Below are positions 1,710 through 3,536 of a stretch of 64,000 bases of DNA, piece by piece. This DNA is from Halobacteroides halobius DSM 5150 (lineage in GTDB: Bacteria > Bacillota > Halanaerobiia > Halobacteroidales > Halobacteroidaceae), in the NCBI RefSeq assembly GCF_000328625.1, contig NC_019978.1:620001-684000 (forward strand). Direction: 5' to 3'. The number at the start of each line of letters is the position of its first letter. Position 1 is the first letter of the stretch. The position numbers and the translations under genes were made by a program. The notes beneath the pieces are model-generated. The model was not told where the DNA came from and ran no database searches. It saw nothing but the letters and a program-made list of their open reading frames with translations.

Positions 1710-1790
1710 TCAATTAATGCCACCCAAAATTAATAAAACAAGAATTAAGAAAGTCACATAAGGTCCATCTCCACCATTGTAGTCACCCAT
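1710..1790 (-). CDS. Tiny hydrophobic protein, YjcZ/tiny-TM sporulation type (copy A2)
   Basis: 26 codons reading MGDYNGGDGPYVTFLILVLL and then ILGGIN. The head is short, hydrophilic and Gly-rich, followed by one hydrophobic helix. The layout resembles Bacillus YjcZ-type tiny transmembrane proteins linked to sporulation, but that is a match of architecture, not of proven homology. A purine-rich SD (GGGGGTGGAAAAAG) precedes the ATG. It is the second gene of a two-gene unit, with a near copy at 2064-2147: both begin MGDYNGGDGPYVTFLIL. It is too short for routine gene calling. Confidence 0.72.
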   Translation of the reverse strand: MGDYNGGDGPYVTFLILVLLILGGIN

Positions 1791-1810
1791 CTTTTTCCAC
1801 CCCCCTTATA

Positions 1811-1828
1811 TTAAGTTATATAACTTAA
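1811..1828. repeat. 18-bp perfect palindrome (copy A) at the end of a tiny gene
   Basis: TTAAGTTATATAACTTAA is a perfect inverted repeat overlapping the stop codon of the tiny gene at 1825-1914. The same palindrome occurs at the same place in the second unit (2172-2189). It could be a protein-binding site or simply part of the duplicated segment. Confidence 0.85.
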
Positions 1829-1914
1829 ATAACACCTAAGACTAACAAAATAACAATTATAAATAAAATGCCACCATAATCTTCACCAAAGCCACCATTT
1901 TCATAGTCTCCCAT
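1825..1914 (-). CDS. Tiny hydrophobic protein, YjcZ-like (copy A1)
   Basis: 29 aa: MGDYENGGFGEDYGG followed by the hydrophobic tail ILFIIVILLVLGVI. The SD GGGAGGTG sits about 6 bases before the ATG. It is the first gene of the distal pair, with 34 bases between its stop and the start of the next tiny gene. Its last 15 residues (YGGILFIIVILLVLG plus VI) are identical to those of the gene at 2186-2275, while the heads differ, so the tail is the conserved part. A membrane-inserted spore or coat role is inferred from shape alone. Confidence 0.72.
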   Translation of the reverse strand: MGDYENGGFGEDYGGILFIIVILLVLGVI

Positions 1915-2008
1915 TAAACACACCTCCCAAATAATAGTAATTTGATCTTTTTATACGATAAAAAATATGGTATCTTAAGAGGGATAGACTATTTTATAGT
2001 ATTGGAAA

Positions 2009-2045
2009 AGACCAGAAGGTTCCAGCAGATAAAGCCTTCTGGTCT
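2009..2045 (-). terminator. Terminator after the proximal tiny-protein pair
   Basis: A perfect 11-bp stem (AGACCAGAAGG / CCTTCTGGTCT) encloses a 15-base loop, followed on the minus strand by TTTTCC. It lies 18 bases past the stop of the tiny gene at 2064-2147, separating the two duplicated units into probable independent transcripts. Confidence 0.8.
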
Positions 2046-2063
2046 AAGATTAATAGTCAATAA

Positions 2064-2147
2064 TTATTGCCAGCCACCGCCTAAAATTAATAAGATAAGA
2101 ATTAAGAAAGTAACGTAAGGTCCATCGCCACCATTGTAGTCACCCAT
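2064..2147 (-). CDS. Tiny hydrophobic protein, YjcZ/tiny-TM type (copy B2)
   Basis: 27 aa: MGDYNGGDGPYVTFLILILL then ILGGGWQ. It has a strong SD (AAGGAGGTG) about 7 bases before the ATG. It is nearly identical to the product of 1710-1790, differing by V to I and at the C-terminus, so it is a duplicate. It is the second gene of the proximal pair and is followed by the hairpin at 2009-2045. One hydrophobic helix fills most of its length. Confidence 0.75.
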   Translation of the reverse strand: MGDYNGGDGPYVTFLILILLILGGGWQ

Positions 2148-2171
2148 CTTTTTCACCTCCTTAATTTTATA

Positions 2172-2189
2172 TTAAGTTATATAACTTAA
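2172..2189. repeat. 18-bp perfect palindrome (copy B)
   Basis: TTAAGTTATATAACTTAA, identical to the copy at 1811-1828 and again overlapping the stop of the first tiny gene of its unit. Exact conservation in both copies means either a recent duplication or selection on the site. Confidence 0.85.
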
Positions 2190-2275
2190 ATAACACCTAA
2201 GACTAACAAAATAACGATTATAAATAAAATGCCACCATAATCTTCACCAAGTCCAGCTTCTTCATAACCTCCCAT
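2186..2275 (-). CDS. Tiny hydrophobic protein, YjcZ-like (copy B1)
   Basis: 29 aa: MGGYEEAGLGEDYGG followed by ILFIIVILLVLGVI. The SD TAGGAGGTG lies upstream. The C-terminal membrane segment is identical to that of 1825-1914, whereas the head has changed (YEEAGL against YENGGF). It is the first gene after the sigma-K-like promoter at 2406-2433, which supports mother-cell expression. As with the other three, the family name rests on architecture: a Gly/acidic head and a single hydrophobic tail. Confidence 0.72.
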   Translation of the reverse strand: MGGYEEAGLGEDYGGILFIIVILLVLGVI

Positions 2276-2405
2276 AGAGTACACCTCCTAACTGGATACT
2301 ATTTAAATCAAACTGTTTAATACGATTTAAGATTGATAAGATAAGGGCTAAGAAATAATATTAGTTTATTAAATTTTCTAAGCACCTCCTTATCAATTTC
2401 TGGTA

Positions 2406-2512: not shown

Positions 2513-2809
2513 TTAGTAGATATCATAACTCCAATCTTGGTGATTATTATTATCCCAATTATTTGCAGAATCTTTAAAACAGAAGTTAAATTGTTCTCCA
2601 TTCTGTACTTCTAATTGAGCAGTCCAATAACCATTACTGCCTGGTTGCATCTCTATATCAGTTATATTCTGCCAGTTTGCACTAGAGCTAGTACCAGCAT
2701 GAATGTAAAGTTTTTCTGCACCATTTTTAGCTAATTTGCCATTATAGCTAACTGTTACTATATCTCCAGTGTGAATTGGCTTTGGTGCGATATTTACTTC
2801 TTTTTTCAA
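2513..2809 (-). CDS. Stand-alone carbohydrate-binding domain protein (CBM25/CBM26-like)
   Basis: 98 aa from a TTG start (2807-2809), chosen because AAAGGAGG lies 7 bases upstream; longer upstream reading would run into the catalase gene. It reads as one starch-binding-type beta-sandwich: VTVSYNGKLAKNGAEKLYIH, then GYWTAQLEV, then FNFCFKDSANNWDNNN, all typical of CBM25/26 modules of amylases. There is no catalytic domain and no signal peptide, so it is presumably cytoplasmic or in the forespore/mother cell. It starts 25 bases after the manganese catalase stop and shares its terminator. The ligand (glycogen or starch-like glucan) is inferred from the fold family. Confidence 0.8.
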   Translation of the reverse strand: MKKEVNIAPKPIHTGDIVTVSYNGKLAKNGAEKLYIHAGTSSSANWQNITDIEMQPGSNGYWTAQLEVQNGEQFNFCFKDSANNWDNNNHQDWSYDIY

Positions 2810-2834: not shown

Positions 2835-3536
2835 TTATTGAACTGGTGTAGTCTCTTGTTTTTGACGTGGGCTCTCAAAACTAGGGGCAGTAGGATTAGG
2901 ATTATCAAAGTACTTGCCCGGAGTCGATAGATCAAAGTATAACTTAGAGTCTTCTGTAACCCCGAAATCATCATTAGATGACCTTTGATTATTTTGTACT
3001 TTATTTAAAGCTTCCCTAAATAAAGCATTATGAGCTTCTTCTCTATTCAATAAAAAATCAATAGTATCTCTAACACCTTGATCATCGATTTGACGGTGTA
3101 AATACTCATAGACAACTTTTGCTCTTTGTTCTGCTGCAATATTAGAGAGGATATCTGCTGCAATATCTCCTGTAACATTAACGAAGTTTCCAGTAAAAGG
3201 AGAGCCAGAAGCATTAGCTAACATAGGAGATAGACCTCCTAGAACTTGGCCCTCTATTTGTCCGACATTATCTTTAGTATTAGTCATTTCATGTCCATTT
3301 AACATATTAATAGTTTGGGCGACCATTTCTGCATGACTAAATTCTTCAGCGGCGATATCTAAAAAAAGGTCTTTAATTTCCGGGTCCTGAATCCGAAAGC
3401 TTTGTGCAAAGTACTGTAAACCAGCTTTTAACTCTCCATTACCTCCGCCAAGTTGTTCTTGTAACATAGAGGCATAAGCGGGATTTGCTTGATCAACTTT
3501 AACTTCATGTAATAATTTTTTATTGTGACTAAACAT
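2835..3536 (-). CDS. Manganese catalase family protein (CotJC-like)
   Basis: 233 aa; begins MFSHNKKLLHEVKVD, the characteristic start of the non-haem manganese catalase family. Four-helix-bundle metal ligands are visible: Glu35, Glu65 and His68 (EEFSHAEM), Glu136 (AAEQRAK) and His169 (REEAHN). The likely reaction is dismutation of H2O2 to water and oxygen by a di-manganese centre. The family includes the Bacillus spore-coat protein CotJC, but no cotJA or cotJB is adjacent. It leads a two-gene minus-strand unit with the CBM25-like gene. The SD AAGGAG precedes the ATG. Confidence 0.9.
   Translation of the reverse strand: MFSHNKKLLHEVKVDQANPAYASMLQEQLGGGNGELKAGLQYFAQSFRIQDPEIKDLFLDIAAEEFSHAEMVAQTINMLNGHEMTNTKDNVGQIEGQVLGGLSPMLANASGSPFTGNFVNVTGDIAADILSNIAAEQRAKVVYEYLHRQIDDQGVRDTIDFLLNREEAHNALFREALNKVQNNQRSSNDDFGVTEDSKLYFDLSTPGKYFDNPNPTAPSFESPRQKQETTPVQ

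Follow-up and report, generated by a model that had tools for sequence, protein, structure and literature searches.

Four tiny genes in two A-B units

The window analysed here is a 64,000-nucleotide stretch of the Halobacteroides halobius DSM 5150 genome (contig NC_019978.1, positions 620,001 to 684,000). Four genes encoding proteins of 26-29 aa, a size below that covered by ordinary annotation, lie on its minus strand at window positions 1710-2275, arranged as two A-B units and transcribed in the order A', B', A, B:

2275-2186, minus strand: gene A', 29 aa MGGYEEAGLGEDYGGILFIIVILLVLGVI; Shine-Dalgarno site (SD) AGGAGGTG; family profile 39.5 bits
2172-2189: perfect 18-bp palindrome TTAAGTTATATAACTTAA, overlapping the A' stop codon
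2147-2064, minus strand: gene B', 27 aa MGDYNGGDGPYVTFLILILLILGGGWQ; SD AGGAGGTG; family profile 47.8 bits
2045-2016, minus strand: stem-loop 3' of B', -19.1 kcal/mol, z -4.3; probable terminator or attenuator with a weak T run
1914-1825, minus strand: gene A, 29 aa MGDYENGGFGEDYGGILFIIVILLVLGVI; SD GGGAGGTG; family profile 44.6 bits
1811-1828: perfect 18-bp palindrome TTAAGTTATATAACTTAA, overlapping the A stop codon
1790-1710, minus strand: gene B, 26 aa MGDYNGGDGPYVTFLILVLLILGGIN; SD GGGGGGTGG; family profile 43.6 bits
1701-1679, minus strand: stem-loop 3' of B, -16.3 kcal/mol, z -4.1; probable terminator with a weak T run

The two units measure 212 and 205 bp and recur with a period of 357-361 bp; a repeat search aligned one stretch of 125 nt at 90% identity and another of 78 nt at 91%. 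A and A' are identical over their C-terminal 20 residues, their four amino acid differences all falling in the head, and their cores differ by one silent change. B and B' share residues 1-17; across codons 11-24 they differ by one conservative substitution (I/V) besides five silent changes, after which the C-terminus differs. An earlier, sequence-only reading of this DNA had described two head-to-tail units of four tiny genes with recurring SDs and an 18-bp palindrome, and with conserved membrane parts set against differing heads and C-termini. The reading frames were confirmed, a strong SD precedes each of the four genes, the palindrome lies at both A-type stops, and the pattern of changes is as had been described. 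The same reading had placed a terminator after each copy; stem-loops do follow both B' and B, but their T runs are weak and a terminator scan listed neither of them, only a site at 2507-2477.

The palindrome occurs twice in the 2,649,255-bp genome, both times at A-type stop codons. We rejected the notion that it is a dispersed repeat, since both occurrences lie in this array. The RNA hairpin predicted for the A' copy is weak (-3.7 kcal/mol, z -1.7). At the A and A' stops, the palindrome may serve in mRNA 3' end protection or in translational spacing, or may simply reflect duplication.

A sigma-K-like promoter and a relic gene upstream of the array

Upstream of A', on the same strand, we found the following features:

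2835-3536, minus strand: manganese catalase gene (CotJC-like), 233 aa; PF05067, E 1e-52
2513-2809, minus strand: gene for a carbohydrate-binding (CBM53/CBM25; starch-binding-domain) protein, 98 aa; PF16760, E 2e-10 on the longer frame 2513-2974
2507-2477, minus strand: clear terminator after the 98-aa CBM protein (terminator scan)
2435-2406, minus strand: sigma-K-like promoter TAACAAAAAATCTACTACCTGCATAGAATA, with -35 AACA, a 16-nt spacer and -10 GCATAGAATA
2392-2317, minus strand: relic of a further family gene, with SD GGAGGTG kept, start codon lost and sequence broken

When the window was scanned on both strands with a matrix built from family promoters at other loci, the promoter at 2435-2406 was the top sigma-K-like site, with a score of 19.3 against 13.0 for the next. 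The SD of the relic stands at the usual spacing after this promoter, and its hydrophobic-core DNA is recognisable. In local alignments the relic scored 32 against B' and 33 against a copy elsewhere in the same genome (L060), each higher than all 300 random-window controls; in the repeat search, 2317-2392 also belongs to repeat family D3. The window array is one that formerly had another gene in first place, whose promoter persists and now has A'-B' next. The promoter probably serves A'-B', at a distance of about 130 nt from A', and A-B would be reached through read-through or a further promoter. We sought a sigma-K site directly upstream of A or A' and found none. A shared CYCTTA-N17/18-CGTATWAAA was spotted by eye.

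The window proteins belong to a widespread family

A first search with one 29-aa protein already gave matches in other genomes, and the matched loci, when read, were short-gene arrays in which the SDs are good and a core is shared. The profile that defines the family (A1) was built from 33 members and is a loose one; among its matches in longer frames with E above about 1e-4, some may be due to chance. A profile search of relatives, which the sequence-only reading had suggested, found copies in 8/8 same-family genomes (this one has 8, the other 7 have 5-15 apiece), with strong matches also in several more distant families. Across a sample of the phylum, 97 of 398 genomes matched at E<=1e-3, the expected number of false genomes being well under one. 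Family genes usually occur in several copies per genome, often in tandem; matches numbered 15 in Orenia metallireducens, 9 in Desulforamulus aquiferis, 7 in Desulfofundulus thermobenzoicus and 4 in Thermincola ferriacetica. In a DNA-pattern scan of genome contigs, just part of the matches listed were true short genes. A search of the same contigs for related loci gave 277 pattern matches, of which none passed a tblastn test, probably owing to the shortness of the query. The earlier reading had missed the promoter and the decayed copy (2317-2435), as well as the further copies elsewhere in this genome and how widely the family is distributed. The same genome holds another tandem pair, with a textbook sigma-K promoter (L060:4911-5092; G000:C1:853916-854085).

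Among 65 members, protein length was mostly 23-40 aa (median, 30 aa). The architecture combines a variable acidic head rich in Gly, Tyr and Asp, a hydrophobic core and a short Gly/aromatic tail. The core is nearly fixed at 14 residues, AFxxFLILILLxLG, and ends in G or S; the heads contain 26% Gly and 12% Tyr, carry a mean net charge of -1.8 and often begin MGDY or MGNY. Among tandem copies of the same locus, the core gave pN 0.115 and pS 0.667 (dN/dS about 0.08), and by this measure it is under strong purifying selection. The view that these proteins are under selection was thus borne out both by this ratio and by conservation elsewhere. Conservation in other genomes also excludes a chance origin of the four ORFs, and that they are real genes, with translation and purifying selection predicted from their sequences, is well supported.

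Scans of the four window proteins and the 33 members against Pfam and NCBIfam gave nothing over cut-off. Weak matches to coronavirus NS7B, TadE and DUF3309 were set aside, as they probably reflect hydrophobic composition. No description of the family was found in a literature search that left subscription literature mostly outside its reach; the family is large and apparently unnamed. Since members contain on average 0.63 Lys/Arg, that is almost none, most would escape tryptic surveys, and the family would tend to escape gene callers too.

Sigma-K-like promoters precede family genes in spore formers

In the regions upstream of the 65 members (21 loci), the pattern AC-N16/17-CATAnnnTA occurred before 24, against 0.4 in shuffles, and patterns for sigma-E, -F, -G and -A showed no enrichment upstream of the same members. 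A looser pattern, AC-N15-18-CATAnnnT, was present before 36/48 array leaders, 0/16 followers (genes close behind another copy) and 5/182 control genes in the same loci. The -10 element of leaders lay mostly 33-51 nt upstream of the start, and base counts of the family promoters gave TAACAA-(16-17 spacer)-GCATATATTA. Distant relatives showed the same trend, with sigma-K sites at 9/46 compared with 1/126 controls. The sigK gene is present in this genome. At the level of promoter sequence, sigma-K control of the family is indicated.

Using spoIVA (TIGR02836) as marker of spore formers, we found that all 97 family-positive genomes of the phylum sample were spoIVA positive and that 0/59 spoIVA-negative genomes were family positive (p=3e-8); among the 61 closest genomes, matches below 1e-5 were present in 19/29 spoIVA-positive and 0/32 spoIVA-negative genomes (p 7e-9), both p values ignoring kinship, so that shared ancestry inflates their significance. 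The family is absent from 242/339 spoIVA-positive genomes and is thus a sporulation accessory rather than a general requirement. All five genomes of the sister family in the same order (f2; G008-G012) are spoIVA positive without a convincing copy, and have either lost the family or use another tiny protein.

Genes neighbouring the family

The manganese catalase and CBM genes lie upstream of the array on the same strand, the catalase gene within about 710 bp. Six genomes from a different family (f6) show a similar proximity, with at most about 310 bp between a manganese catalase gene and either a family gene or a longer variant whose frame, of about 75-115 aa, contains the same core; this adjacency may be one shared ancestral arrangement. 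The Clostridioides difficile manganese catalases CotCB and CotD are coat proteins with reduced expression in a sigK mutant (PMC3789822), and CotJC is listed among the inner-coat proteins of Moorella spores (PMC8745062). At two loci in other same-family genomes, genes for an amidase_3 protein and for a divergent polysaccharide deacetylase with a GerMN-like domain precede the array.

Longer variants of 73-85 aa were seen at L065:6421-6678(+), L078:12234-12479(-), L043:1143-1364(-), L048:1952-2191(-) and L145:6642-6884(-). They join the family core to a tail of roughly 40-50 aa in which motifs including NTFNSYF and TANGLK recur, had no database match above cut-off and adjoin manganese catalase genes in several f6 genomes. 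A glutamine-hydrolysing asparagine synthetase gene lies near family genes at L059, L062 and L071 (TIGR01536 at L059), and that at L059 has its own sigma-K-like site.

A candidate set of spore-envelope microproteins

On this evidence, there is a good probability that the products of the four genes are structural microproteins of late sporulation, synthesised by the mother cell. The reading that fits best is that of spore-envelope microproteins, a YjcZ-like class of spore-forming bacteria outside the Bacillaceae, with location and function inferred from sequence features. After engulfment of the forespore, sigma-K would switch the genes on in the mother cell, and the hydrophobic core would insert into or pack against the outer forespore membrane or the inner coat. 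"Membrane" may here mean membrane associated or coat packed, since a classical transmembrane helix is longer than this core of 14 residues. The Gly/Tyr-rich acidic heads would be turned toward the coat, where they may be cross-linked, perhaps oxidatively, near a CotJC-type manganese catalase; cross-linking through Tyr is speculation. Tandem duplication would give both dose and head variety. Counting against this explanation are the absence of a sigma-K site of its own from A-B and the distance of the promoter from A'.

An entire group of spore components has thus probably gone unnoticed. Parts lists of the spore envelope are very incomplete outside Bacillus and Clostridioides. The family occurs in roughly one in four of the phylum genomes sampled, at up to 15 copies per genome, and matches no Pfam or NCBIfam model. 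For uncultured spore formers its genes are candidate markers of late sporulation, and it becomes testable why such tiny hydrophobic proteins are made in quantity under sigma-K by bacteria that form spores.

Alternative explanations

The four genes could instead be genuine but diverged members of the YjcZ family (TIGR01732/PF09680), sharing a common ancestor with it and having a core one residue shorter. The plan is the same, both families are multicopy and form small tandem groups, sigma-K-like promoters are also found before YjcZ genes of Gottfriedia, and hhalign aligned the family with the YjcZ profile at a score of 19.0 (raw E 1.6e-4, probability 51%). However, this score was reached by 19% of controls with a shuffled core and by 57% of those with a shuffled interior. 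Neither TIGR01732 nor the Pfam model matched any of the four window proteins or the 33 members; TIGR01732 was listed at no family gene in the 41 relatives, out of 61, that were searched with it, and none of the 97 family-positive phylum genomes had it above cut-off. The reverse comparison, of the family profile with true YjcZ proteins, gave 1.4 bits or less, and by inspection of the tables the 7 YjcZ genomes and the 97 family genomes of the phylum sample do not overlap. We therefore regard descent from a common ancestor with YjcZ as unlikely, although with just 14 hydrophobic positions to compare a distant kinship keeps some probability.

The toxins of type I toxin-antitoxin systems (Fst/Ldr/Ibs-like) are likewise small and hydrophobic and occur as tandem short membrane peptides, and the window genes resemble them in size, in their single hydrophobic segment and in their tandem repeats, as well as in the stem-loops and palindrome of each unit. 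That the four genes encode such toxins is nevertheless very improbable. The family is confined to spoIVA-positive genomes and has sigma-K promoters, the SDs are strong and open, and the proteins are acidic, not basic. Sigma-70-type sites, among which an antisense promoter might lie, numbered 11 against 10.2 in shuffles, so that none stands out clearly. Least credible of all is that A and B form a two-peptide bacteriocin-like or secreted peptide pair: two different peptides do alternate in the window, but no immunity or transporter gene was seen among the flanking genes at this locus, the net charge is negative, control appears to be by sigma-K, and strict A-B alternation is seen in this genome's array alone, most others repeating one type.

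Comparison with known systems

As putative spore-envelope microproteins, the family members can be set beside three groups of tiny proteins. Those of DUF3309 (PF11752), which is mainly proteobacterial, likewise have an L/I-rich segment, and 1/33 family members was weakly similar to it (E 0.007). SpoVM is a 26-aa, amphipathic, single-copy protein of the early mother cell (sigma-E). The family is like it in size and in a possible site of action at the interface of forespore membrane and coat, but is multicopy, has sigma-K-type promoters and a uniformly hydrophobic core.

The closest likeness is to YjcZ/tiny_TM_bacill of Bacillus, with which the sequence-only reading had matched the architecture. 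Proteins of that family are likewise about 25-45 aa long, are encoded by numerous genes per genome, a part of them in tandem, and join a Gly-rich variable head to one strongly conserved hydrophobic segment with F at its start and G at its end. The YjcZ-type plan (very short, with a Gly-rich head and one hydrophobic segment ending in Gly) and the restriction to spore formers are both found in the new family. Sigma-K control, predicted for the new family from promoter sequence, is a further likeness: yjcZ of B. subtilis belongs to the sigma-K regulon (PMC517825), and sigma-K-like sites stand before most Gottfriedia YjcZ genes. Where YjcZ has the core FALIVVLFILLIIVGA, this family has AFxxFLILILLxLG, which does not follow the YjcZ consensus FALLVV(L)FILLIIVGA, and its heads are acidic. 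The likeness to YjcZ thus holds as an analogy, in architecture, copy number, regulon and confinement to spore formers, whereas homology failed every sequence test made. It is plausible, if still tentative, that the family is an unnamed superfamily of sigma-K-controlled spore-envelope microproteins that arose independently of YjcZ and plays the same role outside the Bacillaceae. If so, convergence would have led two families of separate origin to a Gly-rich head joined to a short hydrophobic plug, amplified in tandem, which would imply a general structural need at the boundary between forespore membrane and coat.
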